Source of the DNA: Treponema sp.
Lineage (GTDB): Bacteria > Spirochaetota > Spirochaetia > Treponematales > Breznakiellaceae
Assembly (NCBI GenBank): GCA_031254315.1
Contig: JAIRUQ010000099.1
Coordinates: 1-43,850, forward strand
Direction: 5' to 3'
DNA length: 43,850 nt
Of the stretch, positions 8,113 through 29,257 are shown piece by piece. A program made the position numbers and the translations under genes. Below the pieces are notes generated by a model. It had not been told where the DNA came from. It saw nothing but the letters and a program-made list of their open reading frames with translations, and did not search any database. Numbering within the stretch: position 1 is the stretch's first letter; each line of letters opens with the position of its first letter.

Positions 8113-10398
8113 TTAGTCAATAGGGGAGAGCAGACACGAAAGTTTTTCAACAATGTACAGATAATTCATCTTATTAACATTATCCCTTAGCCATGAAACT
8201 AATCCGTCATCGGCTGTGTATTCAAAAGACTCGATTTCTTTCATTATTGTTTCAACTTTCTGCATTTGTAAATTATCACAGGCGGTATAAAGATTTTTTA
8301 ACACTTCTTCATACGGTTTGTCTTTTTTTAATTTGACAATTTGCGGGGTTTCTGCGGGAAACGCGGCTTCAATGTTTTTAATAAGTTTTAAGACATCTTC
8401 AATAAGCGCGAGGTTGTTTGCCTTAACAAATGCAAGATCGCCTGCTTTTGCCGCTTTTTCCAAAGCCCCTGCTTTATTGCCTGCCTCATCGGCGCAAACG
8501 CCTAAGCAAGAACTTTTTATCCCATGTACATTGATTGCGTATTCAGCTAAATTGTTTTCGTTTACTTCTTTCATGGTTTCAAGAAGGTCTCTTGTATTTT
8601 TTGAGAAGGACTGCATTACATGCAGGAAAGTTTCTACATCGCCGCTGAAACGTTTTAGGGCGTTAGCTATATCCATTCCTTCTACTTTTTTGTTGAGTAT
8701 AATCTGGACTTGTTCTTTACCGGAATTGGAGAGCGGCTCTTCATCCACTGTGTCTTCTTCCAGCTTTTCCAGTTCTTCATTGCGCACCCATTGTCTTAAA
8801 ACTGCGTCAAGACGCGAGACATCTATGGGTTTGGGAACAAAAGCCTGAAACCCGCTTTTTAAAAACATTTCTTCGCTTCCTGCAATGGCATTAGCGGTTA
8901 ACGCTATTATCGGGACGGTCTTTGCGTATTTAGTTTCGAGCTTTTCTCTAATGAATTGCAAAGCTTCTATTCCGTCCATTTTGGGCATCATGTGATCCAT
9001 AAAAATAGCGTCATATTTGACCTTCTCTTCACGGACGGCGTCAATTGCGTCCTGTCCGCTGGTTACGCTGTCAACTCTCATCTTGTAAGGTTTCAGCATA
9101 GCTTTTGCTACATCAATGTTGGTTAACATATCGTCCACAACAAGCACATTTGCGTACCTCATGTTGATCCGGTGGAGCCGCTTTCTATCTTTGGCAGTTT
9201 TAACATTGTGTTTTAATTTTTTTAATTCATTGACGGTATCGTCTCCTACAACCTCGTTGTTGATCAATTTTTGCGGCAATTTTACCGTAAAGGTACTTCC
9301 CTTGCCGTATTCGCTCTCTACAGAGATTGAACCGCCCATCATGTCTACTATCATTTTGGCAATGGAAAGTCCAAGACCGGTTCCTCCGATTTCTCTGTTA
9401 TTACGCACATCCATTTGGGTATAGTCGGCAAACAGACTGCTGATGTCTTCTCTTTTAATACCGATGCCTGTGTCTTTGATGGACACGACTAATGTAATTA
9501 CTTTTCCTCCGTCGATGTGTAAATCTGACGGTTCGTACTTTACGTTTAATTCTACGCTCCCTTTCATTGTGAACTTAAAAGCGTTGGACAGAAAGTTATT
9601 CAAAATCTGTTTAATTCTCATGTTGTCGCCAAAAAGGGTTTTTGGAAGGTTTTTATCAATATTTAATATAAAATCAATCTGCTTCTCCCCCTTTAGTATA
9701 ACGTTTTGAGCGGCGGCATCGCTTATCATGGCTGGAACGCTGTATTCAACAGGCGTTAGTCCAAACTTGCCGGAATCAATTTTTGAAATATCCAGAATGT
9801 CATTTACCAGAGCAAGGAGTGAAGAACCTGAATTGCTGATTTTTTCTACATTTTGCCTGACTTCATCACTTAGATCGTTTTGTTCAAGGGTCATCCCGGA
9901 AAGACCGATTACCGCATTAAGCGGGGTTCGCATTTCGTGGCTCATTCTGGCAAAAAATTTGCCTCTTTCTTCAGCCGCCGCGACTTCGTGGGCGTAATTT
10001 TTTATCGCGCGAAATTGATTTACGATTTGTATTTGGTTGCGTACCCTTAATCTTACAGTCATTGCGCTGAAAGGTTTATGTATAAAATCCGCGGCATCAA
10101 GGGACAGCCCCTTTTCTTCGTCTTCCGAGGCGGAAAGACCGGTTATAAAAACAACGGGAATATTCTGCGTTTTTTCGGAATTTTTCAGCGTTTGAAGAAC
10201 CTCATAGCCGTCCATTTCCGGCATGATTATATCCAGCAAAATGAGGTCGGGGACATATTTATTTGCCATTTCTATCGCGGAGGAACCGCTTTTTGTCATA
10301 TAGATGGTATATTCGGGACTTAATATGCAGTTTAAGATTTCAAGATTTATGGTTTCATCATCTATAATGAGGATAGTGTTTTTTTCGGCACTTTCCAT
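8113..10398 (-). CDS. Hybrid histidine kinase: receiver - kinase - receiver - HPt
   Basis: A 761-residue soluble phosphorelay protein with no membrane segment. Domain order: receiver at residues 1-125 (phospho-acceptor D56 in LILLDIIMPEMDG), a short helical linker, HisKA with the phospho-His at about 154 in FARMSHEMRTPLNAVIGLS, an HATPase domain with DTGIGIKRED and GGTGLGLSIA, a second receiver with D468 in AIFMDHMMPKMDG, and a C-terminal HPt domain with His near 625 in NVHGIKSS. An N-terminal receiver before the kinase means another kinase or HPt probably controls it. The ATG has GGAG six bases upstream. It is divergent from the receiver/hydrogenase-chemoreceptor operon, and its kinase core resembles the one at 13453-16071. 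No DNA-binding output is attached. Confidence 0.93.
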   Translation of the reverse strand: MESAEKNTILIIDDETINLEILNCILSPEYTIYMTKSGSSAIEMANKYVPDLILLDIIMPEMDGYEVLQTLKNSEKTQNIPVVFITGLSASEDEEKGLSLDAADFIHKPFSAMTVRLRVRNQIQIVNQFRAIKNYAHEVAAAEERGKFFARMSHEMRTPLNAVIGLSGMTLEQNDLSDEVRQNVEKISNSGSSLLALVNDILDISKIDSGKFGLTPVEYSVPAMISDAAAQNVILKGEKQIDFILNIDKNLPKTLFGDNMRIKQILNNFLSNAFKFTMKGSVELNVKYEPSDLHIDGGKVITLVVSIKDTGIGIKREDISSLFADYTQMDVRNNREIGGTGLGLSIAKMIVDMMGGSISVESEYGKGSTFTVKLPQKLINNEVVGDDTVNELKKLKHNVKTAKDRKRLHRINMRYANVLVVDDMLTNIDVAKAMLKPYKMRVDSVTSGQDAIDAVREEKVKYDAIFMDHMMPKMDGIEALQFIREKLETKYAKTVPIIALTANAIAGSEEMFLKSGFQAFVPKPIDVSRLDAVLRQWVRNEELEKLEEDTVDEEPLSNSGKEQVQIILNKKVEGMDIANALKRFSGDVETFLHVMQSFSKNTRDLLETMKEVNENNLAEYAINVHGIKSSCLGVCADEAGNKAGALEKAAKAGDLAFVKANNLALIEDVLKLIKNIEAAFPAETPQIVKLKKDKPYEEVLKNLYTACDNLQMQKVETIMKEIESFEYTADDGLVSWLRDNVNKMNYLYIVEKLSCLLSPID

Positions 10399-10517
10399 AA
10401 TACGCTCCGCAAACTATAAAATGGACTTGTTCGGAAACCCGTGGTTCCCTCAAAGTCTTGCATTTTTTCAGGCTATAAGCCATAGGACAAAGTCCGGCAA
10501 AAATACAGTTCTATGGA

Positions 10518-10549
10518 AGTTGTTCAGAAACTAAAGTTTCGGAACAACT
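10518..10549. promoter_or_regulatory. Long hairpin between divergent signalling genes
   Basis: Two 15-base arms separated by AA pair with a single A/G mismatch (AGTTGTTC-x-GAAACT against its complement). The element lies between the start of the hybrid kinase (10398) and the promoter of the receiver gene (10565-10593), and neither gene ends here, so it is not a terminator for them. It could be an operator or an RNA structure. Confidence 0.5.
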
Positions 10550-10564
10550 CTAATCTAAAAAAAC

Positions 10565-10593
10565 TTGAACTTTTTCCTTATTTATTATATAAT
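10565..10593 (+). promoter_or_regulatory. Promoter of the receiver/hydrogenase-chemoreceptor operon
   Basis: TTGAAC (10565-10570), a 17-base spacer and a perfect TATAAT (10588-10593). Transcription would start near 10600, giving a leader of about 60 bases. Confidence 0.7.
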
Positions 10594-10658
10594 ATTAATC
10601 AGAAAATAGATATTATTCTATATTAAGAGCTTTTTTTCCAAGTAAAAGGAAGGTGTTT

Positions 10659-11042
10659 ATGGCTGAAAAGAAGGTAGTTCTGGCAATAGATGATAATTTA
10701 CAACAACTAAGCGAATTTCAAGCGATACTATCTGACGACCAATACGATCTTCGTGCGGCTAAATCAGCCTCCGAAGCCGTAAGTTTTGTTAATAAGGTAA
10801 AAGTTGATGTTGTCCTTTTGGATATTGAAATGCCGAATATTTCCGGTTTTGAATTTCTTCAGGATATATTAAGGCTTCCCAGCTATAGGTTAGTGCCGGT
10901 TATTGTTGTTAGTATTAACTCCGGGCATGAGTTTGTTACTAAAGCAAAGAATTTGGGAGCCGCCGGTGTAATATCCAAGCCGGTAAATCCTGTTATATTA
11001 CGTGAAACCATAGAAAAAGCTCTGTTAGCAAGGGCGAAATAA
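10659..11042 (+). CDS. Stand-alone receiver domain protein
   Basis: A 127-residue single-domain response regulator. The acidic pair is in LAIDDN near residues 9-13, the phospho-acceptor is D55 in VVLLDIEMPNISGFEFL, the Ser/Thr switch region is VIVVSINSG, and the conserved Lys is in GVISKPVN near 105. There is no output domain, so it works like CheY or Spo0F as a shuttle. The ATG at 10659 has GGAAGG five bases upstream; a GTG two codons earlier is a less likely start. It ends 12 bases before the hydrogenase-like chemoreceptor gene, so the pair is an operon and the receiver is a natural candidate for that receptor's signalling pathway. Confidence 0.9.
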   Translation: MAEKKVVLAIDDNLQQLSEFQAILSDDQYDLRAAKSASEAVSFVNKVKVDVVLLDIEMPNISGFEFLQDILRLPSYRLVPVIVVSINSGHEFVTKAKNLGAAGVISKPVNPVILRETIEKALLARAK

Positions 11043-11054
11043 AGGGGCTTAATA

Positions 11055-13277
11055 ATGAATAATTCAGGTGATATTGCTCCCGTAATAAGTATTGAAGAAG
11101 GGAAGTGTATAAACTGTTATGCTTGTATAACGGCATGTCCGGTAAAATTTTGCATGGACGGTTCCCATGATAGACTTGGAGTTAATCATAATATGTGTAT
11201 TGGATGCGGGAACTGTATAACTTCATGCAGTCATCATGCGCGCAAACCAATTGATGATACGCAGAAATTTTTTAGCGACCTGAAGAACGGAGAAAAGATA
11301 ACCGCTGTGGTCGCTCCTGCCGTAGCTTCGGTCTTTCCTGATATGTACCTAAAATTAAACGGCTGGCTTAAATCTTTGGGGGTTACAGCGGCGTTTGATG
11401 TAAGTTACGGCGCGGAACTTACCGTAATTTCCTACCTTAATTACATCAAAGCAAAAAGCCCCAAGATGGTAATTGCCCAGCCATGCCCGGCAATCGTCAG
11501 TTACATCGAAATTTACCACCCTGAACTAATTCCCCATCTCGCGCCGGCGGATAGCCCAATGCTCCATACCGTCAAAATGATACGGGAATATTACCCTGAA
11601 TACAGAGGGCAAAAAATCGCCATAATCTCTCCATGTATTGCCAAGAAAAGAGAATTTTCCGAAACGGGACTTGGTGATTATAATGTTACCATGCTTGCCC
11701 TTAAAGAATATATTGAAAGGGAAAAAATTAACCTTAATGAATTCCCCGCTGTTGAGTATATAGGCGCGTCTGCTGAACGTGCGGTGTTGTTCTCGTCTCC
11801 CGGAGGTTTGCTTGATACTGCAGAACGTTTTGTACCCGGTATCAGAAGAAACACCCGTAAGATCGAGGGAGTTCATACAATCTATCATTATTTAACACAG
11901 GTTTCAAAAAAACTAAACGATCCTAGCGTTGAGTTTCCATTACTTATAGACTGCCTTAACTGTGAAATGGGATGTAACGGCGGTCCTGGTACGGGAAATT
12001 CTAAACTGACCATGGATGAGCTTGAAAGCCCGGTTCGCAAACGTAGCGCGGAGCTTGAACGTAAACTTAATCCCAAGAACAACGAAAAACTTTATAAAAA
12101 ATACAACAAAGTTTTGAATAACTATTGGAAGAAAGGTTTATACGATAGAACTTACAAAGACCTTTCCGGCAATAACAATATAAAACATCCCAACGAAACA
12201 GAATTAAAAGAAATCTATAAACAGATGAGGAAATTAAGCGACGCGGATATATACGATTGTACTAGCTGTGGTTACGGAAGCTGTAAGTCAATGGCGACGG
12301 CGATTTACAATAATCTCAACAAAATTGGCAATTGCGCTCACTATAACCTTTCGCTCCTTGATGAAGAGAGAAAGACAACGGTCTATATCACAAGGGAACT
12401 CAAGGGGCACATAAACCGCGCCCTTGAAGTAATAGAGAGTATCAATAGCATGGTAGGAAAACTGAATGTTACTATCCATGAACAGTCTGACTCGGTGAAT
12501 TCATCATCCGCAGTTACGGAAGAAATGGTAAACTCACTAAAGAGCACTTCCGATTTATCACGGAAAAAAAGAGATGTCATAAAAGAGTTAATCGAAAATG
12601 CCGCCAGCGGACAGGATGCAATGAAAGAAACCATTCAGGCGGTTCAAAGTATCGCCCAATCCATAGACGGCATAGGGTCGGCAATTAAAATCATCAGTGT
12701 TATAGCGTCTAACACAAACCTTCTTTCTATGAATGCCGCTATAGAATCCGCACACGCAGGAGAGGCGGGCAAGGGGTTTGCCGTAGTAGCCGATGAAATA
12801 CGCCGTCTCTCTGAATCTACCAGAGAAAATTCGCGTAACATTTCTCAAACATTGTCGAACATCATCTCGGGTATTACCACCACTTCAAAACGTTCCACCG
12901 ACGCAGGCACTATAGTTAATAATATGTCGGAAGAAATTAACAACTTTGCCGCAACGATGTCAGAAATTATTGACACATTAGGCGAACTATCGGCAAAGAG
13001 TTCCGACATTACAGGCTCACTGGATAATTTGAAAGGACACAGCAGTGCGGTAAAAACGGACTATGAACAAATGCAGTCCATGACGGACAAATTAAGGTAT
13101 GATATTAACTTCCTCGCCGCAATGTCGGCGGATATTATCCGTGCGATAGAACAAAACGATAATACTATAATTTCAAACATGATAAACACTGAAGAAAAGA
13201 AAGAGGCAGAGGAGGCGAACGCAAGTACGAGCGTGAGCGTAGAAGCAGAGGCAAGTGAGAGCGCACCTACAAGTTAA
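11055..13277 (+). CDS. Soluble chemoreceptor with a sensory [FeFe]-hydrogenase-like input domain
   Basis: A 740-residue fusion. Two [4Fe-4S] ferredoxin motifs come first (C18, C21, C24, C28 and C48, C51, C54, C58). The H-cluster domain of [FeFe] hydrogenases follows, with its three Cys segments: [12 protein letters not shown] (C144), [10 protein letters not shown] (C194) and [13 protein letters not shown] (C300, C303, C307). Next is a further Fe-S motif, C402, C405, C410 and C427 ([18 protein letters not shown]). From about 440 to 700 comes a methyl-accepting chemotaxis signalling coiled coil with the tip [20 protein letters not shown] near 555-574. There is no membrane segment, so it is cytoplasmic. 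The catalytic motif TSCCPxW is altered, as in sensory rather than turnover enzymes. The likely role is sensing H2 or redox state and steering CheA/CheW; that is inference. GGGG precedes the ATG. Confidence 0.93.
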
Positions 13278-13416
13278 ATAAATTTTTTTCTGAAATTTTA
13301 ATTTAGCTACCGTTAAAACGCCGCCTATCTCCAATTTATAAACAACTATCGTTAAGAAAATGCAAGACTTGTGAAGAGACGCCATGTTCTCAATATGTCA
13401 ATAAAGACGATTTTTG

Positions 13417-13446
13417 TTGCACCTTTAAAAGACTTTATGATATATA
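13417..13446 (+). promoter_or_regulatory. Promoter of the 7TM hybrid kinase gene
   Basis: TTGCAC (13417-13422), an 18-base spacer and TATATA (13441-13446). The -10 ends six bases before the ATG at 13453 and there is no Shine-Dalgarno sequence, so a leaderless transcript is likely. Confidence 0.5.
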
Positions 13447-13452
13447 TAGTTA

Positions 13453-16071
13453 ATGAAGGGTAAAACAGATTTAATCAATTTCTTTTTTCCGCTTTTTTAT
13501 GCCGCCGCTTTTTTGTTTGTGGTACTTAATGCGTGGAATATACAAACCGAAGTTAGGCGAAGTAGCGGTTCGTTATACCGCAATCTTCGTGAATGTCCCG
13601 CCTATGTAAAACACGGCTTTGATCAGACAACGCTGGAAAAAATCCCCATTGAAGCGGAAGGATGGTTTCGTTTTCCGTCCTCATCATCAGCAAGACGCAT
13701 CATGAATTCCCCTTTGCCTGATCTGCCAAAGCGTACATATCTTTCACCATTTGGAAAACCGGCGCAGGAATTTACTATTGTGTTTTTGATTGAAATGAAT
13801 GATGAATCTCTGTCGCTTTTAAATGGCGATAATTCAATACTGCCGGGATTTTTCTTTGCCGGTATCGGGGAGAATTGGGAAATCTTTTTCAATGGGAAAG
13901 CGGTCTATTCTGAAATGCACTTGGATGAAAATGGTAAAATTAAAGAGCAGAGGACATGGCGGGATATTTATTTCCCGGTGGACGGTTTGCTTTTTACTCC
14001 GGGGACAAATATTTTGACATTGCGGATTATAGGAGACCCGGCTTACACAGCTACAGGAGCGTTCTATAATACGGCTCCCATTTACATGGACAATTACCGT
14101 ATTATTGAAGGACGCCAGCACAATTTTCTGCTTGTGATCCTTGGCGGCATCTGTATTTTTGCCGGGGCATATTATATTTTGCTTTTCTTTTCTATAAAAA
14201 ATAAAAGAGAAATATTTAATCTCTATTTTGGTATTTTCTCGATACTTCTCTGTATTTTTGCCATTGCAAGAAACGGCATGGTTAATTATTTAATTCCCAA
14301 TTCGCATATTTCAATTCGTTTGGAATATGCTTCTCTTATGTTGATGATACCCGTGTTTGGCATATTTATTGAAACTCTGCTGAAGGGGAGGATAACAAAA
14401 ACAAGCCTGGGCTACACGGTGTTCTGTTCTTTCCTTGCCCTGACGCAGTTTTTGTTCTGTGAGCAATACGCTCAAGAAGTTGTAGCGATATGGAATGTAA
14501 CGGCTATGATATATTTTAGTTATATTATCGTATACGAAATAATTTATTATTTTCTTTTTTGGGGCAAACGTAATAGGAAGTATGATGGGAAGGGCATACA
14601 TTTAGATATGCCTATAGGCAGTATTTTAATTGGTACGATAGCAAGCTACTTTTGCGGAGTTTATGATATTATTGACGCTCTGTTTATTCGAAGCGCTTTA
14701 ACTCTTTTTCAGTACAGTGTCTTTGTAGTTCATACCGGAATGGTCTTTGCGCTTTCTCAGCGTTTTAGCGGAATGTATAAACGGATGGAACAATCCAACG
14801 CCATTTTAGAATTAACGGTACAGGAGCGTACAAGAGAACTGGAAGAACAGACGGAAATAGCGCTTAACGCATCAAGGGCAAAAAGTGATTTTCTTGCAAC
14901 CATGAGCCATGAAATCAGAACTCCACTGAATGCGGTAATCGGTCTTTCAGAGATAGAACTGCGCGGCAGTCTGCCTGAGGCAAGCATGAATAATATAGCG
15001 CAGATACATCAATCAGGTTCTTCTCTTTTAGGAATTATAAACGACATTCTTGATATTTCTAAAATTGAAGCGGAAGCTTTTGAACTTGTTCCCGTTGAGT
15101 ACGAGACAGCGCAGTTTATCAATGACACGATTAATCTTAACAAAGTCAGGGCAGGAGGGAAACCTGTGAACTTTGTTTTAGAAATCAATGGGGACTTCCC
15201 GAAAAAGCTTGTGGGTGATGAGCTGAGAGTTAAACAAATATTGAATAATCTTATTTCAAATGCGTTTAAGTACACCAAAGAAGGAGAGGTAACGTTAAGC
15301 GTATCATCGTATTCTGTGGAAGGTGCACGGGAAAGTGAGGCGCTTTTGCGTTTTGATGTGCGGGACACCGGTATGGGCATACGCAAGGAGGACATAGGAA
15401 AACTGTTCGCCAGTTACGCCCAATTTGACGCAAAAGCAAATAGGGCAATCGAAGGGACGGGGCTAGGGCTAGAGATAACAAAAAAACTTGTAGAGATGAT
15501 GGGCGGCAGTATCGCTGTTGAAAGTAAATACGGTAAGGGATCGGTATTCACCGTAACGCTGGTGCAGGGTGTTGTTGGTTCTGCGAGTATAGGGGAAAAA
15601 ACAGCCGAAGACCTGCGAAACTTCCGCTATGTATGCGGCAGAAAAGAGCTTGACATTACTCCAGCGTGGATGCCTTACGGAAAAGTGCTTGTCGTAGATG
15701 ATGTGGAAGTGAACATAATGGTTGTTGAAGGACTGCTTGAGCCTTACGGTCTTAGGGTAGACAGCGCGTCTTCCGGCAGGCAAGCTATTGAAAAGGTCTG
15801 TGCCGAAAATCCTTTATATGATCTTGTGTTTATGGATCACATGATGCCCGAAATGGACGGTATTGAAACGGTAAAAGTAATTCGGGAATGGGAAAAACAG
15901 GCGGCAAAGCGGACAAGGATTCCTATTGTCGCTCTTACAGCAAACGCCCTTGCGGGAAATATGGAGATGTTTATGTCCTCAGGCTTTGATGGTTTTATCT
16001 CAAAACCCATCGACATTGTTCAGATTGATGAGGCTCTGAACAAATGGATACGGGACAAACAAAGCCGGTAA
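13453..16071 (+). CDS. 7TMR-DISM-type membrane hybrid histidine kinase
   Basis: An 872-residue kinase. An N-terminal helix (about 8-27) is followed by an extracytoplasmic region to about 220, with a jelly-roll-like segment ENWEIFFNGKAVYSE and WRDIYFPVDGLLFTPGTN, then seven hydrophobic helices between about 222 and 440. That layout matches 7TMR-DISM sensors, where the outer domain often binds carbohydrates; the ligand here is unknown. A coiled coil leads to HisKA with His 486 in ATMSHEIRTPLNAVIGLS, an HATPase domain with DTGMGIRKED and EGTGLGLEIT, and a receiver with D795 in FMDHMMPEMDGIE. It stops after the receiver, so it needs an HPt from elsewhere. Its core is close to that of the kinase at 8113-10398. 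No ribosome-binding site is visible. Confidence 0.9.
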   Translation: MKGKTDLINFFFPLFYAAAFLFVVLNAWNIQTEVRRSSGSLYRNLRECPAYVKHGFDQTTLEKIPIEAEGWFRFPSSSSARRIMNSPLPDLPKRTYLSPFGKPAQEFTIVFLIEMNDESLSLLNGDNSILPGFFFAGIGENWEIFFNGKAVYSEMHLDENGKIKEQRTWRDIYFPVDGLLFTPGTNILTLRIIGDPAYTATGAFYNTAPIYMDNYRIIEGRQHNFLLVILGGICIFAGAYYILLFFSIKNKREIFNLYFGIFSILLCIFAIARNGMVNYLIPNSHISIRLEYASLMLMIPVFGIFIETLLKGRITKTSLGYTVFCSFLALTQFLFCEQYAQEVVAIWNVTAMIYFSYIIVYEIIYYFLFWGKRNRKYDGKGIHLDMPIGSILIGTIASYFCGVYDIIDALFIRSALTLFQYSVFVVHTGMVFALSQRFSGMYKRMEQSNAILELTVQERTRELEEQTEIALNASRAKSDFLATMSHEIRTPLNAVIGLSEIELRGSLPEASMNNIAQIHQSGSSLLGIINDILDISKIEAEAFELVPVEYETAQFINDTINLNKVRAGGKPVNFVLEINGDFPKKLVGDELRVKQILNNLISNAFKYTKEGEVTLSVSSYSVEGARESEALLRFDVRDTGMGIRKEDIGKLFASYAQFDAKANRAIEGTGLGLEITKKLVEMMGGSIAVESKYGKGSVFTVTLVQGVVGSASIGEKTAEDLRNFRYVCGRKELDITPAWMPYGKVLVVDDVEVNIMVVEGLLEPYGLRVDSASSGRQAIEKVCAENPLYDLVFMDHMMPEMDGIETVKVIREWEKQAAKRTRIPIVALTANALAGNMEMFMSSGFDGFISKPIDIVQIDEALNKWIRDKQSR

Positions 16072-16131
16072 GTGCGGAAACTGACAATTAAGACAAGGAA
16101 TTGTTATTTCTCGTGCGGGTTCCGCATCATG

Positions 16132-18366
16132 CTATGCGGACTCCGGCAAATCGTCTTTTTCAGCCAGCTTGGACAACTCTTTTATCGCCGCTTCCAATTC
16201 TGCTTTTAGTGTGTTCATCTGCTCGTTTGGAACCATATTTAATCCGCCCTTAAGATTCTGCTCTACAACAGCGGCGGCTTTCTGAAGAGAAATCATGTCA
16301 AGTTGATCTGTATTGCTCTTTAAAGTGTGCGCAAGTTTTACATCCTTCTCATCCAGAGCTTTCTCTATCTCTTCATGTTTATTCTTGTTAATTTTGACAA
16401 ATAAAACTTGTATTTGTTTCTTAAATTCCGGATCATCCATTATATTTCCAGCGTTGTTCTGTTGCGAGTTGCCATGTTTATGAACATTATAAACACTTGT
16501 CTTCCTTTCCACCGGCTTTAAATATTTTAGCAGGCATTGCCATAGTTCCTGCGATGTAAACGGCTTACTTACGCAGTCATACATCCCGTGCGCTTTGTAT
16601 ATTTCCCTGTCATCTAACATAACGTTGGCTGTCATTGCTACAATGGGAATTCCTGTGTCAAGTTCAATAATTTTAGTAGCGGCTTCAAGCCCATCCATTA
16701 CCGGCATATGCGTATCCATGAATATCAGATCAAATTGTTTTTTATTATTGGATTTGCGCTCGCTGACTATATCCACGCCAATTTTGCCGTTTCCCGCGAT
16801 AACGGTTTTAATTCCCACTCTTTCAAGGTGTTCACAGATAACCTCTTGATTCATCTCGTTGTCTTCGCACAGCAGAATTTCCGCATCAAAAGCTGGCTTT
16901 TCAATTTGATTAAGAATAATCCCTTTTGCAAACGCCTTTCCCGCTGATATATCTATTGTATTAAATTTCAATGTAAAGCTGAATTTACTGCCTACTCCGA
17001 GAGCGCTTTCAACAGAAAGTTTGCCGCCCATCAATTCCACTAAGTTTTTTGCAATTGCAAGACCAAGCCCAGTGCCGCCGTATTTGCGTGTTGTTCCTGT
17101 TTCCGCCTGCGTAAACGGCTCGAATATTTTTTCTAAATGTTCCGGCATCATTCCAATACCGTTGTCTTTTACTTCAAAATAAATAGTCACTGTGTTTTCG
17201 TCTTTTTCGATAATTTCCGAAGAAAGTTTGACCATTCCGTTGTCGGTAAATTTTATCGCGTTGGAAAGAAGATTTACGATGATCTGGCGCAGTTTTGCGG
17301 GGTCTCCAACCGGTCTTCTGCCAATGCTTGGTTCAGCGTAAAAATGAAGAATCAGCCCCTTTTCAACTGCTTTTGGCACAACCAATGTACGACAGCTTGA
17401 AAATAATTCGTGAATATCAAATGGGATATTTTCCAAATCCATCTTACCGGATTCAATTTTGGAAATATCAAGTATGTCATTGATAATATGAAGGAGCCAT
17501 TCAGAATTTGTGTTTATTTTTTCCAGATAATTTCTGGTTTCCGGAGGAATTTCATCGTCCAAAGCTAATTCCGTAAAACCAATAATGCTGTTCATTGGAG
17601 TCCGTATCTCGTGGCTCATATTAGCGAGGAAGCGGCTTTTTGCCTGAGAAGCGCTCTTCGCTTCTTCTTCTATTGCTTTACGGTTGGTAATATTTCGTGA
17701 CAATCCCACAAGCCCTGTAACTTTCCCGTTTTGTATGAGGGGAGCTTTTATTGTTTCAACAAGCTGTAGCTCTCCGCCGGGGGATGGCACAAATTCTTCA
17801 TAAGTTATCGTTTTTCCTTCATTAAAAATTTTTTGATCCATTGCGAGATATTGTTCCGCCAAATCCGAAGGAATACCCAATGCCTCTGAGTCGCTCTTAC
17901 CGATGATGTCCTGCTTTCTCAGGTTAAAATGCATTTCCATGCTTTTATTGGATCGTGTATAGCGAGAGTTTAAGTCCTTGCAAAATATCATATCTGGGGT
18001 AGAGTCTAAGATGGCATTAAGAGTGGAAGTTTCTTCCAATTTAAATTTTTCAAGTTGTTTTTTCACGCTGTAGTTTTTGTAAAGTATGAGCAATCCCAGA
18101 GCAAACGCGACAAAAGACATGGTAACAGCGGCAAGTAGCCAGTTAAAGAGTGTTCCCGTAAAGTCGCTGTCCCATACCGATATGGGGTTATTTGCACCAT
18201 TTACTGTGGTTGATTCCTCCGAAATATACGAAAATTCTGTCAAATTCGAGTTTTTTTCGCCTTTTTCGTAAAAAACTAAAGTGTATAGGATTATACCGAG
18301 TATGTTTATACAAATTAGCACCGCGGCAACAAAATTTAATTTTTTTAAACCTGTCTTTCCCGTCAT
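16132..18366 (-). CDS. PAS-domain membrane hybrid histidine kinase with HPt
   Basis: A 744-residue kinase. Two membrane helices (about 10-31 and 72-94) enclose a short periplasmic loop of some 40 residues. A PAS domain follows at about 105-230 (AILDSTPDMIFCKDLNSRYT; then GLVGLSRNITNRKA). HisKA carries His 252 in FLANMSHEIRTPMNSIIGF; the HATPase domain has DNGIGMMPEH and GGTGLGLAIA; the receiver has its Asp near 545 in LIFMDTHMPVMDG; and a C-terminal HPt has His near 680 in LAHTLKSN. The ATG has GAGG five bases upstream. It is the last of three tandem minus-strand kinases with nearly the same core, and faces the convergent 7TM kinase gene across 60 bases. Confidence 0.92.
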   Translation of the reverse strand: MTGKTGLKKLNFVAAVLICINILGIILYTLVFYEKGEKNSNLTEFSYISEESTTVNGANNPISVWDSDFTGTLFNWLLAAVTMSFVAFALGLLILYKNYSVKKQLEKFKLEETSTLNAILDSTPDMIFCKDLNSRYTRSNKSMEMHFNLRKQDIIGKSDSEALGIPSDLAEQYLAMDQKIFNEGKTITYEEFVPSPGGELQLVETIKAPLIQNGKVTGLVGLSRNITNRKAIEEEAKSASQAKSRFLANMSHEIRTPMNSIIGFTELALDDEIPPETRNYLEKINTNSEWLLHIINDILDISKIESGKMDLENIPFDIHELFSSCRTLVVPKAVEKGLILHFYAEPSIGRRPVGDPAKLRQIIVNLLSNAIKFTDNGMVKLSSEIIEKDENTVTIYFEVKDNGIGMMPEHLEKIFEPFTQAETGTTRKYGGTGLGLAIAKNLVELMGGKLSVESALGVGSKFSFTLKFNTIDISAGKAFAKGIILNQIEKPAFDAEILLCEDNEMNQEVICEHLERVGIKTVIAGNGKIGVDIVSERKSNNKKQFDLIFMDTHMPVMDGLEAATKIIELDTGIPIVAMTANVMLDDREIYKAHGMYDCVSKPFTSQELWQCLLKYLKPVERKTSVYNVHKHGNSQQNNAGNIMDDPEFKKQIQVLFVKINKNKHEEIEKALDEKDVKLAHTLKSNTDQLDMISLQKAAAVVEQNLKGGLNMVPNEQMNTLKAELEAAIKELSKLAEKDDLPESA

Positions 18367-18477
18367 ACAAGCCTCGCAAGACCAATGTATTTTATAGTAT
18401 TAAATATAAGAAAAATTCGATGAGGCGTGGAAAAAATTATTAAAAAGCATAATTATATAAAAAAACGGGCGAAATGG

Positions 18478-21400
18478 TTATATTTTCAGTTCTTTTTTTA
18501 AATCAGCGAGTGCGGTAACAGCTTTTTCAAAATCAAAATCTTCTATTTGCTGTATGAGTTTTTCACTGCCGGGTATTGAACGAAGACCGGCGGTGAAATT
18601 TAAGGAATCGGGACTACCCATTTCAAGCAGGGGTCCCAGCTTTTCAAGTGTTTTTTTCGCGGTTTCTTCGTCATACGGCTCAGATTGAACCTCAGTTGAA
18701 CTGACTGTTTCGAGAATCTCAGACAATTCGTTTATAACCAACGCCAGCTCCATTTTTAGTATTTCTAAATGCTCGCTTGTAACAAGATTTGTCTCTCCCT
18801 TGAGGTGGTGTTCTATATCAGCGGCGGCTTTCTGCAGAGAAGACTTGCCAAACTGACCTGCGTTGCCTTTTAAGGAATGTGCAAGCCTGTGTGCAAGTTT
18901 TAAATCATTGTCTTTTAAGGCTTTGATTATTTCTTCGTGTTTATTACGGTTAGACCTGACAAATAATATTTGCATCTGTTTCTGGAACTCAGGATCGCCA
19001 ATAACATTATCTGTTGTGTCCTGCTCAGGATTAGGAGAGGCGCTTCCTGTTTTATACTCTTTTTGCTTTAAGTATTTTAACAGACACCGCCACAGTTCTT
19101 GCGATGTAAACGGCTTACCTACGCAGTCGTTCATGCCGTGCGATTTATATATCTCTTTGTCATCGGACATAATATTCGCTGTCATTGCTACAACGGGGAC
19201 TCCTATGTCAAGTTCAAGAATTTTCGCGGAGGCTTCAAGACCATCCATTACGGGCATGTGCATATCCATAAATATCAAATCAAATTGTTTTTCATTATTG
19301 CGTTTACGCTCGCTTAGTATATCCACGCCGATTTTGCCGTTCTCTGCAATAACGGTTTTAATTCCCACCCTCGAAAGATGCTCACTGATAACCTGCTGGT
19401 TCATTTCGTTGTCTTCAAACAGCAGAACTTCCGCGTCAAATTCCGGCTTTTCAATCTGTTTAAGCGTAGTTTGTTTTGCAAACGCTTCTTCTTCTGTTAT
19501 ATTTATCGTATTAAATTTCAGCTTAAAACTGAATTTACTGCCGACTCCGGGGGTGCTTTCAACAGAAATCTTGCCGCCCATCAACTCTACCATGTTTTTT
19601 GTAATCGCCAGCCCTAGTCCGGTTCCGCCGTATTTGCGTGTTGTTCCTGTCTCCGCCTGTGTAAACGGGTCGAATATCTTTGCTATCTGTTCAGACGTCA
19701 TTCCAATGCCTGAGTCTTTTACTTCAAAATTTACTGTGGCTGTGTTGTCGCGTACTTCTATTATATCTGCGAGAAGTTTGACCATCCCACTGTTTGTAAA
19801 TTTTATTGCGTTGGAAAGAAGGTTTACAATGACCTGCCTAAGTCTTGTGGGGTCCCCAACCGGTTTTTTACCAAGGCTTGGTTCCGCGTAAAAATGAAGC
19901 ATAACGCCTTTTTCAACTGCTTTTGGCATTACTAATGTACGACAGCTTACAAACAGTTCATGCATATCAAATGGAATATTTTCCAGTTCCATCTTACCGG
20001 ATTCAATTTTGGAAATATCAAGTATGTCATTGATAATCTGAAGTAGCCATCCGGCGTTCGTACGAATCTTATCCAGATAATCTTTGGTTTTTGGCGAAGT
20101 TTCACCGTCCATAGCCAATTCCGAAAAACCAATAATGCTGTTCATGGGTGTCCGTATCTCGTGGCTCATGTTTGCAAGGAAAATTGATTTTGAACTATTG
20201 GCTCTTTTGGCAATTTCAAGCGCGTCTTCCAGTTCATGCTGAGATTTGTTAAGTTCATTAGTACGCTTGTTTACTAAATCTTCAAGACGTTTGCCTTCAT
20301 TTCTGCTCCGTAGAAACATGATCAGTATCAGGCTAAGTACAGCCAAAAGCAAAACAGCCGCGCCAATGAACCAAGGAAGCTGGGCTTCTATTACTTTCAC
20401 ACGATAATCGTAAGTTTTTTGTAGCCACCGTCCTGATACTCCCTTTGTGTCTATCAACTGTAATGCTTTATCGACAATGGCGCAAAGAATAATTTCGTCT
20501 TTATTAAATCCAAAAGTAGAACCAAAAGATTCGTCAAATATAATATTTGTCTTATAACCTACACGCTCACGGTAATTAAGAAGGTCAAGAAGCCTACTCT
20601 GTAACGTCATTACCATATCTACTTTGCCGTCAGCTAGAGCGTTAAACGCCATTGTTTCATTTTCGTATTCTATTGTATTTGAATGAGTCGGGAACCATGT
20701 TCTAAATACTGCGGCGTAAGCGGTATCTTTCATCAAGCCTACTTTTACATAGAGGATTTCATTTATATTGATATTCCGGTGCTCTGTCTTGGATAAAAGC
20801 GCGTAATTACTTGAAAAAAGAGATGTTGCTGGCCAGAGAAATTTACCTTCTCTTTCATGAGTGCGGATTAAGTGAGTTATCATTGAAACTTTTCCGTCTT
20901 CCAGCATCTTCAGCAGGTCAGGGAAATCTTTCGCTTGATCGTTTACGCGCTTGAATGTTATTCCGGTAAGGCTCTCTATCTCTTTAAGCATATCAGCCGC
21001 AACGCCTTGCCATTGTTTTTCACGTTCGTTGTAAAAAGAAACAGGATAATTATCATGTTCAGCCGCATATTCTACTACCGGTTTTTTATGGATATACGCC
21101 AATTCTTCTTCGTTCAGCCATGCAAACAATTTGTGCTTTTTATAATCGTAGTAACCCTGATTGTACAATTCTGTCAGATACTGGATTCCGCCGTTGCGAA
21201 GCATCTTCTGCACAACGGAGATAATTGGCTCAAGATCAGGATTATGTGTTGACAGGGCGACCGGTTCAAAAACCAATGGAAAAAAATCACTTGTAACTAC
21301 ATCTCCGTAAATGTCAAAGCTCGCTTCTCCGGGTCCTTCATTTATAAAAGTATCAGCCCTTCCGTTTTTAAGAAGTTCGTAAGCGCGCTGGTTATTATCA

Positions 21401-21996
21401 ATATAAATTATTTCTGCGCTGGGATGAAGCGTAGGCATTACGGCATCAACAGTGGTAGTGTCTTCCAGAAAAATATAGCGTACCGGACGCGACATGGCAA
21501 TTTCAGAAAGGGGCGGACTTCCTGCAATACGAAAATGTTTTATTTGGCGTTCCGCTATGGCATCGGTCATAAACCATGTTTTTCTGCGCTCTTCGGTTGG
21601 AGTCAGCTCTCCGGTAAAATCAATCTCGTGAGCTTGAAGTCCTGTAATCAAATTGCCCCAAGTGAGAATTTTAGGTACAAACCGAATCCCGAATAATTCT
21701 GAAAGCCAGTCACAAAGAAGAACCGTGAACCCTCCAATATTGCCGTTCTCGTCAGAAAATGCCTCGGTGTTTGAAGTTGTCCCGTATACAAAAGAAGGTT
21801 TCTTTGCGCTCAGCGCAGAGATAGCCGTGATTTCTTCCGGCGTAACGCCGGGAATCTCATGGATCGATTTAAATTGAGAATTTTTCTCATTTTGAGGCGG
21901 TTCATGTTTACAGCTTAAAACTATACCGCATAAAATTATGCATACCAGTACAGCAAAAGCAGATAATTTAGCACAACCAGTTTTTTTGTTCGGCAT
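18478..21996 (-). CDS. Hybrid histidine kinase with twin periplasmic solute-binding domains
   Basis: A 1172-residue kinase. The start segment MPNKKTGCAKLSAFAVLVCI ending in GIVLSC looks like a lipoprotein signal. Two amino-acid-binding-protein-like domains (SBP family 3) follow at about 55-285 and 300-530; the motifs GFTVLLCDWLSELFGIRF and GVAADMLKEIESLTGITF are equivalent positions in the two. One membrane helix lies at about 541-562, then a coiled coil, HisKA (His about 612), HATPase (DSGIGMTSEQ, GGTGLGLAIT), a receiver (Asp about 910 in FMDMHMPVMDG) and HPt (His about 1036 in LAHSLKGN). A further helical tail of about 70 residues follows. This resembles BvgS/EvgS-type Venus-flytrap kinases. 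The ATG at 21994-21996 has GAGGTG seven bases upstream; an ATG five codons earlier would overlap that site. Confidence 0.92.
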   Translation of the reverse strand: MPNKKTGCAKLSAFAVLVCIILCGIVLSCKHEPPQNEKNSQFKSIHEIPGVTPEEITAISALSAKKPSFVYGTTSNTEAFSDENGNIGGFTVLLCDWLSELFGIRFVPKILTWGNLITGLQAHEIDFTGELTPTEERRKTWFMTDAIAERQIKHFRIAGSPPLSEIAMSRPVRYIFLEDTTTVDAVMPTLHPSAEIIYIDNNQRAYELLKNGRADTFINEGPGEASFDIYGDVVTSDFFPLVFEPVALSTHNPDLEPIISVVQKMLRNGGIQYLTELYNQGYYDYKKHKLFAWLNEEELAYIHKKPVVEYAAEHDNYPVSFYNEREKQWQGVAADMLKEIESLTGITFKRVNDQAKDFPDLLKMLEDGKVSMITHLIRTHEREGKFLWPATSLFSSNYALLSKTEHRNININEILYVKVGLMKDTAYAAVFRTWFPTHSNTIEYENETMAFNALADGKVDMVMTLQSRLLDLLNYRERVGYKTNIIFDESFGSTFGFNKDEIILCAIVDKALQLIDTKGVSGRWLQKTYDYRVKVIEAQLPWFIGAAVLLLAVLSLILIMFLRSRNEGKRLEDLVNKRTNELNKSQHELEDALEIAKRANSSKSIFLANMSHEIRTPMNSIIGFSELAMDGETSPKTKDYLDKIRTNAGWLLQIINDILDISKIESGKMELENIPFDMHELFVSCRTLVMPKAVEKGVMLHFYAEPSLGKKPVGDPTRLRQVIVNLLSNAIKFTNSGMVKLLADIIEVRDNTATVNFEVKDSGIGMTSEQIAKIFDPFTQAETGTTRKYGGTGLGLAITKNMVELMGGKISVESTPGVGSKFSFKLKFNTINITEEEAFAKQTTLKQIEKPEFDAEVLLFEDNEMNQQVISEHLSRVGIKTVIAENGKIGVDILSERKRNNEKQFDLIFMDMHMPVMDGLEASAKILELDIGVPVVAMTANIMSDDKEIYKSHGMNDCVGKPFTSQELWRCLLKYLKQKEYKTGSASPNPEQDTTDNVIGDPEFQKQMQILFVRSNRNKHEEIIKALKDNDLKLAHRLAHSLKGNAGQFGKSSLQKAAADIEHHLKGETNLVTSEHLEILKMELALVINELSEILETVSSTEVQSEPYDEETAKKTLEKLGPLLEMGSPDSLNFTAGLRSIPGSEKLIQQIEDFDFEKAVTALADLKKELKI

Positions 21997-22029
21997 TATT
22001 CGACACCTCAATTATAAAGGAACTTCTAA

Positions 22030-22049
22030 AAACTTCAGTTTTTAAAGGC
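22030..22049. other. Small inverted repeat upstream of the twin-SBP kinase gene
   Basis: TAAAAAC-TTCA-GTTTTTA is a perfect seven-pair stem with a four-base loop, in the gap between two tandem kinase genes. There is no T run next to it on the minus strand, so it may be a weak attenuator or chance. Confidence 0.3.
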
Positions 22050-22103
22050 TCCCTTAATATTATCACTTTTTTCATTAATTAAGCAAGTGCGGATGTTCCG
22101 GTT

Positions 22104-25100
22104 TTACGACAAGTTGGCTTCGTTAAGCAGGGGAGCGAATTCAGCCAGAACGGCATTCAGCTCAGCCTTTAAAGTTTTTAACTGTTCTTCTGTTACAAGA
22201 TTTTTGCCGTCTTTAAGCTGGCGTTCGGCATCTGCGGCGGCTTTCTGAAGGACTGTTTTTCCAAGCTGAGCGGCATTGCCCTTTATATTGTGCGTTATCC
22301 TGTGCGCGAGTTCAATGTCTCCCGTCTCAAGGGCTTTCATTAATTCTTCAAATTTATTTTGATAGTTTTTCACAAAGAAAACCCTAAACGTTTTTTGAAA
22401 CTCTAAATCGGCAGTAAGCAAAATGTCCGTTTCTGTAGTTTTACTCTCTTCGCGGCTGACAGGCTTTAGATATTTCAACAGGCAACGCCACAACTCCTGA
22501 GATGTAAATGGTTTACCCACACAGTCATGCAAACCTCTCTGTTTATATATTTCTTTCTCGCTTGCCATGACATTTGCCGTTATGGCTATTATAGGTACAT
22601 TTATATTAAACTCAATTATTTTAGCTGATGCGGCAAAACCGTCCATTACCGGCATATATATATCCATGAGAATAAGATCAAATTGCTTTTCGTTTTTTTG
22701 AATACGTTCATGAACCTTGTCCACGCCAATTTTGCCGTTCTCCGCAATGACGGTTTTTAGACCTAGTCTTGTGAGGTGTTCGCTAAGAACCTGCTGGTTT
22801 ATAGGGTTATCTTCGCATACCAGAACTTCACCCTCAAATGTTGGCCTTTTAATTTCATCAAGTGCAGTTGTTTTCTCTGATTTTTCATCACTGAATGCGT
22901 CTATCGTATCAAATGTCAGCTCGAAACTGAACTTGCTTCCGGCTCCGGGAGCGCTTTCAACAGAAAGTTTTCCGCCCATCAATTCTACAATATTTTTGGC
23001 TATGGGAAGACCAAGCCCCGTGCCTCCGTATTTTCGGGTTGTACTGGATTCAGCTTGAGTAAACAGATCGAATACTTTATTTATCTGTTCGCTTGTCATG
23101 CCAATGCCGGTGTCTGTTATTTCAAAATATATAACGATAGATTTTTCATTGGCTTCTTTTATTTTTGCGCGTATTTCGACAGTTCCTGTATCTGTAAATT
23201 TTATGGCATTGGACAGGAGATTAATTAAAACTTGACGCAGTCTTGTGGGATCGCCTAATGTTTTGCCTTTAATCTGCTCAACATAAAAGTTAAGCGTTAA
23301 ACCTTTTTCAAAGGCTTTTTGCATTAGTATCGTTTTGCAGTTAGCGAACAATTCATTAATATCAAACGGAATTTTTTCCAGTTCTATTCTTCCTGATTCA
23401 ATTTTTGAAATATCAAGTATGTCATTTATAATTTGCAACAGCCCCTGCGTGCTTTCAATAATTTTATGAAGATAATCTTTAGTTTGCAGGGGAATATCAT
23501 CATCTATCGCCAATTCAGAAAATCCAAGAATACTGTTCATTGGTGTTCTTATCTCATGGCTCATATTTGCAAGAAAAATACTTTTTGCTTCACTCGCCGC
23601 CCGCGCTTCTTTTAAGGCTTCTTCCAAATTTTTATGCAGGGAGACAATTTCGGTAAGATTGTTGTGACGTAAAAGCGCACTTGCAATCATCAGACAGCCG
23701 GAGCGCAGAATGGCTTCTTCATTTCCCGAAAATTGAGTTCCCCGGTGGCAGTTATCAAAACCGACAAATCCCCAAAACTGATCCTGCAAAAAAACCGGAG
23801 CAATAAAAATTGACAATATTCCAGAAGAAGCCTTCTTCCAGAAATCCGGTATATTATGCGCAAGACTATTTATACATTGTCCTTTTGACAGTATATCTCT
23901 CCACAGTGGTATTTTTTCCTGATATGATACATTTTCTGTAAATTCGACAGCCTGCTGTTGACCGGAGCGCTCCGACCATTCGTATATTTTAGTTGCACAT
24001 AACTCGCCTTGATAATAATTATTTTTCCAAAGATGAACACAGTCAGCATCAACAGCCGCCGCCATCATGCCCATACAGCGATAAAGACTTCTTTCAAATT
24101 GAGAAATATCCGAATCAAGCAAAATAGCCGCTATAGTGTTTATTGCTTGTAGCATGTGGTCACGGTGATTGTTCTCATCCATTGCTTTCAGCACACTTGT
24201 ATTGTATTCAATAAGACGGTTCCATGTTTTTTGCGTTGCCCGAGCAAGATCGCCAATTTCGTCATCATGGTCAGTGCCGTATATATTGTTATTTTCACCG
24301 CCTACGTTAGATATGCTGTGAATAAGACGGTTCAGCGGAAAAATAAACAACCGGCGGATTAATGTTGAGTTGACCAGCGAATAAAGTATAAACGCCGAAA
24401 GAACAACAAATAAAAGCGGCAGAAGACTTGTAATTTTAAAGAGGGAATCAGCGTTATAAAATGTGACTACTATCCAATTTGTGGCAGGAATAGGAGCGAC
24501 AGACAAATATTTATAACTACTGCCTGAAATTTTCATGACCTTTGGATCAATGCGCATGGAGCTGTAATTAACGCCGGAATTTCTTAAATGTGCGTTTATA
24601 ACCGAAATAAAATCAGGATCGAAATTGACATCCGTTATACTGCGGCGCTCTTCAACATCATCAATGGTAATACCTTCGTAAAGAAGATGCGGCTCAGATA
24701 CGGAACTGTCCATCAAAATAATTCCGTCATGGTCAACTATATATCCTATTACAGTCCGGTTGTCGTACTGCCTAAAAAGCGCGTAAAACAACTCGTCTAA
24801 CTGCAAGAAGGAACAGAATACGCCGCGAACAATTCCGTCTTCCATTACCTTTTGATTGATCCACAAACAGCGTGTATTTGTTACTTTATCTAAATCTATG
24901 TTAAGGGTATAATCATTTTTTGAATTAATGCAGTTAAAGAACCATTGATCATAAAGATTCGCCTGATTTAATTTATTAAATGGAATAAATTTATCAAACC
25001 CTTCATCACTCTTAATTGAATACTCGTTAAGCGACTCCAGAACGGCAAAATAAAGACTTCTGGTTTGAAGCAAATTGGCGTAGTTCATCATTTCCTGATA

Positions 25101-25379
25101 CGCCGAAGTTTTCTTTTCCTGATTATTTTCATCGGCAAACCAGTCAATCATTTCTTTTGATTGAGCGGCATATTGTACAAATGTAATTTCTTTACTTAAA
25201 TAAGAGCTTAATATTTCAACTGTTTCCATGGAATAAAAACGGGCGTGAGTTCTGGATGCGTCGGATATTATACTCAAAAGCATAACGATGCTAACTAAAG
25301 TCATAAATATCAAAAAAAAAGCAAGAAAAAGAGTATTGATATTTCTGAAACGAACAGCGATTTTACTTTTATATTGCAT
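22104..25379 (-). CDS. Cache-HAMP-GAF hybrid histidine kinase with HPt
   Basis: A kinase of about 1091 residues. A first membrane helix at about 15-37 and a second near 328-350 flank a periplasmic Cache-type sensor of about 290 residues, with VIGYIVDHDGIILMDSS and the membrane-proximal NWIVVTFYNADSLF typical of dCache. HAMP follows (FPLNRLIHSISNV), then a GAF domain at about 425-580 (VDADCVHLWKNNYYQGEL; FWGFVGFDNC). The core has HisKA (His about 607 in FLANMSHEIRTPMNSILGF), HATPase (DTGIGMTSEQ, GGTGLGLPIA), receiver (Asp about 903 in LILMDIYMPVMDG) and HPt (His about 1029 in AHRITHNIKGN). A GTG two codons upstream (25385) is an alternative start. It is the first of three tandem kinases with shared cores. 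Confidence 0.92.
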   Translation of the reverse strand: MQYKSKIAVRFRNINTLFLAFFLIFMTLVSIVMLLSIISDASRTHARFYSMETVEILSSYLSKEITFVQYAAQSKEMIDWFADENNQEKKTSAYQEMMNYANLLQTRSLYFAVLESLNEYSIKSDEGFDKFIPFNKLNQANLYDQWFFNCINSKNDYTLNIDLDKVTNTRCLWINQKVMEDGIVRGVFCSFLQLDELFYALFRQYDNRTVIGYIVDHDGIILMDSSVSEPHLLYEGITIDDVEERRSITDVNFDPDFISVINAHLRNSGVNYSSMRIDPKVMKISGSSYKYLSVAPIPATNWIVVTFYNADSLFKITSLLPLLFVVLSAFILYSLVNSTLIRRLFIFPLNRLIHSISNVGGENNNIYGTDHDDEIGDLARATQKTWNRLIEYNTSVLKAMDENNHRDHMLQAINTIAAILLDSDISQFERSLYRCMGMMAAAVDADCVHLWKNNYYQGELCATKIYEWSERSGQQQAVEFTENVSYQEKIPLWRDILSKGQCINSLAHNIPDFWKKASSGILSIFIAPVFLQDQFWGFVGFDNCHRGTQFSGNEEAILRSGCLMIASALLRHNNLTEIVSLHKNLEEALKEARAASEAKSIFLANMSHEIRTPMNSILGFSELAIDDDIPLQTKDYLHKIIESTQGLLQIINDILDISKIESGRIELEKIPFDINELFANCKTILMQKAFEKGLTLNFYVEQIKGKTLGDPTRLRQVLINLLSNAIKFTDTGTVEIRAKIKEANEKSIVIYFEITDTGIGMTSEQINKVFDLFTQAESSTTRKYGGTGLGLPIAKNIVELMGGKLSVESAPGAGSKFSFELTFDTIDAFSDEKSEKTTALDEIKRPTFEGEVLVCEDNPINQQVLSEHLTRLGLKTVIAENGKIGVDKVHERIQKNEKQFDLILMDIYMPVMDGFAASAKIIEFNINVPIIAITANVMASEKEIYKQRGLHDCVGKPFTSQELWRCLLKYLKPVSREESKTTETDILLTADLEFQKTFRVFFVKNYQNKFEELMKALETGDIELAHRITHNIKGNAAQLGKTVLQKAAADAERQLKDGKNLVTEEQLKTLKAELNAVLAEFAPLLNEANLS

Positions 25380-25393
25380 CTTCACAAAATTAT

Positions 25394-27353: not shown

Positions 27354-27393
27354 GGGAAAATAGTTTTAAAAATATTACTTAAAGGATTGTTAC

Positions 27394-29217: not shown

Positions 29218-29257
29218 GCCTGTACAGAACGACAGACTCGTTATATTAGTATAAAAT

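Follow-up and report, generated by a model that had tools for sequence, protein, structure and literature searches.

A predicted soluble chemoreceptor with a sensory-type [FeFe] hydrogenase as input domain in a Treponema genome

We analyzed a stretch of 43,850 nt from a Treponema genome (hereafter the window) and found a gene that encodes a 740-aa fusion of an [FeFe] hydrogenase head and a methyl-accepting chemotaxis protein (Hyd-MCP). We read this protein as a cytoplasmic chemoreceptor that has a sensory-type [FeFe] hydrogenase as its input domain and acts through CheA on the flagella, with a probability of about 0.68. Hydrogen or the redox state of the cell would probably steer swimming through this fusion.

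The gene forms a single uninterrupted frame in the ORF list and its translation (Table 1). Searches with Pfam profiles placed Fer4/Fer4_10 at residues 11-61 and Fe_hyd_lg_C at residues 81-311 (106.6 bits, E 2e-30), both above the curated cut-offs, FeS (PF04060) at residues 400-428 with 23.4 bits against a cut-off of 23, and MCPsignal at residues 513-676 (101.1 bits, E 8e-29, above the curated cut-off). HAMP and PAS had no Pfam match in the fusion, and no transmembrane segment was detected in it, the top 19-residue Kyte-Doolittle mean being 1.42. Pfam, alignment and hydropathy thereby bear out the sequence-only reading, which had described two ferredoxin motifs, the H-cluster cysteines, a fourth Fe-S motif and an MCP tip in one membrane-free protein. 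We collected 87 Hyd-MCP fusions; with the layout shared by these homologues and the fold of the predicted head matched by solved [FeFe] hydrogenases (Z 29-34), the arrangement lies far beyond chance.

Table 1. Features of the fusion gene and of the receiver gene upstream (window positions)
Feature	Positions	Strand	Basis
Stand-alone response-regulator receiver	10659..11042	+	Response_reg 84 bits
Hydrogenase-chemoreceptor fusion, predicted soluble	11055..13277	+	ORF, Pfam, homologue alignment, AlphaFold2, hydropathy
First [4Fe-4S] ferredoxin motif C18-C21-C24-C28	11106..11138	+	Pfam Fer4
Second [4Fe-4S] ferredoxin motif C48-C51-C54-C58	11196..11228	+	Pfam Fer4
H domain Fe_hyd_lg_C, residues 81-311	11295..11987	+	Pfam and structure match
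L1 segment A141-Q-P-C144-P145 (CpI T297-S-C299-C300-P301)	11475..11489	+	Alignment (87 fusions, catalytic enzymes)
L2 segment S192-P-C194-x2-K197-x2-E200 (CpI M353, C355, K358, E361)	11628..11654	+	Alignment
L3 segment D299-C-L301-N-C303-x3-C307-N-G-G310 (CpI E495, M497, C499, C503)	11949..11984	+	Alignment
C-terminal [4Fe-4S] motif C402-x2-C405-x4-C410-x16-C427	12258..12335	+	Pfam FeS; invariant spacing
Receptor coiled coil, residues 428-699	12336..13151	+	AlphaFold2 helix; alignment with membrane receptors of this genome
Candidate adaptation (methylation) pair E489-E490	12519..12524	+	Alignment with the genome's other receptors
Signalling tip, residues 545-589	12687..12821	+	MCPsignal; alignment with the genome's other receptors

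The H-cluster cysteines of the fusion are C144 (L1), C194 (L2), and C303 and C307 (L3), and its cluster-near lysine is K197. In the alignment, all four cysteines were kept in 87/87 MCP fusions and the lysine in 85/87. The cysteines of the first F-cluster were present in 86/87 (the remaining row is a gap), those of the second F-cluster and the ligands of the C-terminal cluster in 87/87, and the Cx2Cx4Cx16C motif after the H domain had identical spacing in every one of them. Relative to CpI, C299 (proton relay) is replaced by Pro (P143) in 84/87 fusions, M353 by Ser (S192) in 81/87 and M497 by Leu (L301) in 86/87, and the L3 Glu, presumed to be Glu289 of TamHydS (alternative proton path Glu252/Glu289), is Asp (D299) in all 87. 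Comparable changes at C299, M353 and M497 have been reported for the sensory groups C and D, and the C-terminal Cx2Cx4Cx16C cluster motif belongs to sensory [FeFe] hydrogenases such as TamHydS and TmHydS (PMC8163306). Comparison of the predicted head with solved [FeFe] hydrogenases using VIA-align gave Z of about 26-34, including 33.6 for CbA5H (8zqd; 344 residues at rmsd 2.6), 31.3 for TmHydABC (7p8n) and about 29-31 for the CpI and D. desulfuricans enzymes. The genome also encodes the maturases HydF, HydG and HydE (548, 619 and 563 bits respectively, all above curated cut-offs). The head thus has the appearance of an intact, sensory-type [FeFe] hydrogenase.

In an AlphaFold2 model built on 27 homologues, the block means of pLDDT in the head (residues 11-440) were mostly 83-96 with dips to 68-78. 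A helix begins at residue 428, immediately past the last cluster cysteine (C427), and the region 428-699 was modelled as one unbroken helix, with block pLDDT of about 56-75 past residue 440. The model gives a single helix with neither tip turn nor dimer, and the putative tip hairpin is taken from homology to receptors; the tip is near-identical to those of the genome's other receptors, and the alignment is gapless there. Each arm of the coiled coil falls short of those in the membrane receptors by about four heptads (28 residues in the N arm), which makes a shared array with them uncertain, and the fusion may pack outside the membrane-receptor array. The pair E489-E490 lines up with an E-E/E-Q pair in the other receptors of this genome, and EE or EQ stands at this N-arm pair in 27 fusions of the class with about 137 residues from C427 to the tip glutamate. 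On the C arm, the alignment shows one Glu in place of an adaptation pair. We also considered a fixed heptad register, given that C427 and the tip glutamate lie 81, 95, 123, 137, 165 or 172 residues apart in 52/79 fusions, all 4 mod 7. We do not claim one, as the genome's own paralogue has 136, 27/79 fusions deviate, and in-register gain or loss of heptads within an old fusion would yield the same pattern.

On the output side, a profile search found twelve strong MCP genes and three proteins with a CheW domain in the genome, namely one CheA (counted by its CheW-like domain), one CheW-CheR-like protein and one CheW. A cheX gene adjoins cheA, and FliG is present. The cluster cheA - cheW-cheR-like - cheX (L179:2060-6260 (+), contig C112) has no cheY behind it, and two near-identical CheY-like proteins of 145 aa are encoded on contigs C17 and C90. 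Statements on the whole gene set carry the caveat that the assembly consists of 127 contigs with 5.85% estimated contamination. One CheA with a CheW-CheR-like protein, CheW and CheX is the arrangement named F2 in Spirochaetia, and its CheW-CheR-like protein is known for motility (PMC7666581). Since the single CheA is of this spirochaetal type, the flagellar pathway is the simplest output of the fusion. The direct link from the state of the H domain to chemotaxis, proposed in the sequence-only reading, remains the best interpretation in view of the H-domain ligands, HydE, HydF and HydG, and the shared receptor tip. Elsewhere in the window (25500-30070, + strand), two MCP genes lie in tandem, encoding proteins of 617 aa and 607 aa (the latter has HAMP), and are followed by a gene for an SBP_bac_3 solute-binding protein.

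The receiver ORF upstream of the fusion spans 10653-11042, and its ATG at 10659 is preceded by AAGGAAGG. Its stop lies 12 nt before the ATG of the fusion on the same strand, and the two genes are probably co-transcribed. A receiver-only gene was found at the same place and on the same strand in 8/8 near relatives with flanking sequence (L055, L085, L086, L087, L089, L090, L091 and L159). No receiver gene lies beside the second Hyd-MCP of the genome (contig C1), so the receiver is not essential to the Hyd-MCP type. Neither a DNA-binding nor an enzymatic domain was matched by Pfam in the upstream receiver, which has no aromatic residue at the position of CheY Tyr106. It is unlikely to be the CheY of the cell, for which the 145-aa proteins on C17 and C90 are better candidates. 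Within the window, structured RNAs had no Rfam match and promoter-like sites were not more frequent than in shuffled sequences. Hybrid histidine kinases are dense around the fusion (window 8113-25385, with genes at 8113-10398, 13453-16071, 16132-18366, 18478-22011 and 22104-25385), and the genome holds about 70 receiver domains.

The second soluble Hyd-MCP (L007:9515-11611 (-), contig C1; 698 aa, 64% identical) adjoins the gene for DNA polymerase I, and other Treponema MAGs again contain members of both paralogous lineages. Contig C3 encodes a Hyd-FeS-PAS-histidine kinase-receiver sensor of 1453 aa (L006:3636-9085 (-)), preceded by a receiver-HD protein. The catalytic hydrogenase of the genome is a HydABC-type cluster on contig C35. 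On contig C76, a HydA-like subunit of 449 aa (L002:805-2154 (+)) lies behind a NuoF/HydB-like gene, has no H-cluster cysteines and appears to be a degenerate, NuoG-like relative of hydrogenases. Acetyl-CoA synthase had no match in the genome, so H2 is expected to be a product rather than food, and it is probably a fermentation product of this organism. Acetogenic use of H2 was rejected on the same ground, notwithstanding the presence of FTHFS, and swimming toward H2 as an acetogenic fuel is unlikely. Attraction to H2 and a response away from it or toward H2 sinks are equally plausible.

Among 393 sampled Spirochaetota genomes, at least 72 (at least 18%) carry the fusion with matches spanning both halves; the survey used a two-row profile and the 72 were counted from the matches listed, a lower bound because receptors of the shorter classes stop earlier and scoring was limited to two candidates per genome. 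In a contig scan, the nearest relatives, with identities of up to 73%, came from MAGs that carry the label Treponema sp., in keeping with the earlier description of the host as a gut spirochaete; the sample codes of this MAG series presumably denote termite hosts. Other carriers are labelled Phycisphaerae, Verrucomicrobia, Saccharicrinis, Cloacimonadota and Lachnospiraceae, representing five other phyla. A receiver and Hyd-MCP pair of about 70% identity (L159:4620-7350 (+), the same as L056/L088) was found in a genome assigned to another family of the class (G441), which points to either a binning error or horizontal gene transfer between gut bacteria.

Among the near relatives found, in a search that was seeded with Hyd-MCP, the most frequent output is MCP, and the expectation that sensory hydrogenases usually have PAS or phosphatase outputs fails for these relatives. 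The further outputs are histidine kinase with receiver and Hpt, CheA-like ATPase, PAS alone and GGDEF-EAL. In a quick tree of the hydrogenase part, which came with long-branch warnings, the output labels need at least 9 changes, one of them being the catalytic outgroup. A single origin of all Hyd-MCP fusions was rejected in the same tree under the same warnings (p-AU 2e-72). The sensor head seems to have swapped outputs repeatedly, between MCP, histidine kinase, CheA-like ATPase and GGDEF-EAL. The GGDEF-EAL fusions (L139:268-2838 (+) and L144:3907-6549 (+)) suggest an H2 or redox input to cyclic-di-GMP. Two other loci (L133:3087-5876 (-) and L134:927-3596 (-)) combine a hydrogenase sensor with a CheA-like ATPase domain and have no HisKA match; the L2 segment of L134 reads SPCYSYRRE, without the cluster-near lysine.

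The mechanism that we infer, with an occupied H-cluster, H2 as ligand, mechanical signalling, a part for the receiver and swimming as output, would run as follows. HydE, HydF and HydG would assemble the H-cluster in the head of the fusion, and H2, equilibrating with protons and with electrons via the two ferredoxin-type clusters, would alter the state of the H-cluster and F-clusters. The H domain would then shift relative to the C-terminal [4Fe-4S] domain, which, seated on the end of the receptor helix, would carry this movement mechanically along the coiled coil as far as the tip, where the activity of the single CheA, and hence the flagella, would be altered. In TamHydS, H2 induces a structural change and the C-terminal cluster is not reduced (PMC13104023). 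We favour mechanical transmission since that cluster stays unreduced by H2 and the cluster domain of Hyd-MCP joins the receptor helix directly. More tentatively, Hyd-MCP could be a true H2 chemoreceptor, with the C-terminal [4Fe-4S] domain serving as a structural joint and not as a redox relay, and could form with its dedicated receiver the first pathway for H2 taxis whose receptor is defined; we hold this possible, with the odds against it.

Other readings start from the same head. The protein could be an energy or redox receptor in which the F-clusters come to equilibrium with the ferredoxin pool and the H-cluster serves only to store electrons, the signal being the level of reduced ferredoxin and not external H2. 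Such a role would suit the retention of both F-clusters in essentially all fusions, the slow turnover of sensory enzymes and their lack of the group A proton path (PMC8163306, PMC10407848), and the structural change that photoreduction causes in TamHydS, as H2 does (PMC13104023). We nevertheless find it doubtful, because the surroundings of the di-iron site (K197, the four H-cluster cysteines, the maturases) would be dispensable if electrons alone mattered and yet are near-invariant, and because the H2 affinity of TamHydS is raised (PMC8163306). It is highly improbable that the head is a relic that no longer binds an H-cluster, in a degenerate receptor: C299, M353 and M497, important in catalytic enzymes, are indeed substituted, but the H-cluster ligands are invariant over 87 fusions from several phyla and the active TamHydS bears similar substitutions (PMC8163306).

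As for the output, the receptor, CheA and the co-encoded receiver might control genes, for instance those for hydrogenase expression, and not swimming. The dedicated receiver gene 12 nt upstream, its counterpart in 8/8 near relatives, the missing aromatic at the Tyr106 position, and the kinases and c-di-GMP enzymes driven by related sensors all point that way. Against this, the sole CheA is of the spirochaetal type with a CheW-CheR-like protein known for motility (PMC7666581), and DNA-binding and enzymatic domains are absent from the receiver, which leads us to judge gene control unlikely.

A 2026 study of TamHydS named finding the interaction partner as a next step (PMC13104023). In Hyd-MCP the partner is covalently attached, and a standard in-vitro assay exists for CheA kinase activity as the output, which opens signal transfer by sensory [FeFe] hydrogenases to direct testing. 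The fusion would also provide a molecular basis for swimming in gut H2 gradients if H2 is its ligand.

A 2012 paper by Ballor, Paulsen and Leadbetter on termite-gut treponemes reportedly described, in the words of its title, "[FeFe] hydrogenases and hydrogen sensors", with an abstract that is said to mention methylation pathways and possibly chemotaxis; these H2 sensors come from the same kind of organism as the host of the fusion. HydDB (2016), in the passage cited, labels [FeFe] group C2 "chemotactic (putative)" and describes it as a putative H2-sensing [FeFe] hydrogenase that acts via a methyl-accepting chemotaxis protein, with neither experiment nor anatomy given there (PMC5037454); a survey of acetogenic Clostridium uses the same label (PMC9431212). 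The fusion carries MCPsignal in the same polypeptide and is likened to C2 by this description. With a HydDB class since 2016, treponeme sensors since 2012 and a presence in at least 72/393 Spirochaetota by profile search, the earlier characterization of the system as little-described is too strong for the existence of Hyd-MCPs and fair for their function; in the open-licence papers searched we found no experiments on any Hyd-MCP. New here are the near-invariant ligand cysteines together with sensory-type substitutions, the presence of HydE, HydF and HydG, and the single CheA, as well as the direct helix junction without PAS or HAMP, the conserved upstream receiver and the apparent repeated exchange of outputs.

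Among characterized proteins, TamHydS (group D, Thermoanaerobacter mathranii) shares with the fusion the two F-clusters, the H domain and the Cx2Cx4Cx16C motif (PMC8163306, PMC10407848, PMC13104023), as well as Ser at M353, Leu at M497 and the loss of C299. It differs in having no downstream domain where the fusion has a receptor, in Ala rather than Pro at C299, and probably in an L3 Glu that is Asp in the fusion. TmHydS (group C, Thermotoga maritima) has the same module order through the C-terminal cluster, but continues with PAS and has Gly/Ser at M353/M497 (PMC8163306), whereas in the fusion the PAS typical of group C (M2f) had no Pfam match and the receptor helix starts directly after the cluster, at residue 428. 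The F2 system of T. denticola resembles that of this genome, with its cheA - cheW-cheR-like - cheX cluster and a separate CheW, and takes its inputs from membrane receptors and from SAM via the CheW-CheR-like protein (PMC7666581, PMC10653840). To a system of this F2 type, Hyd-MCP would add a cytoplasmic gas or redox input.
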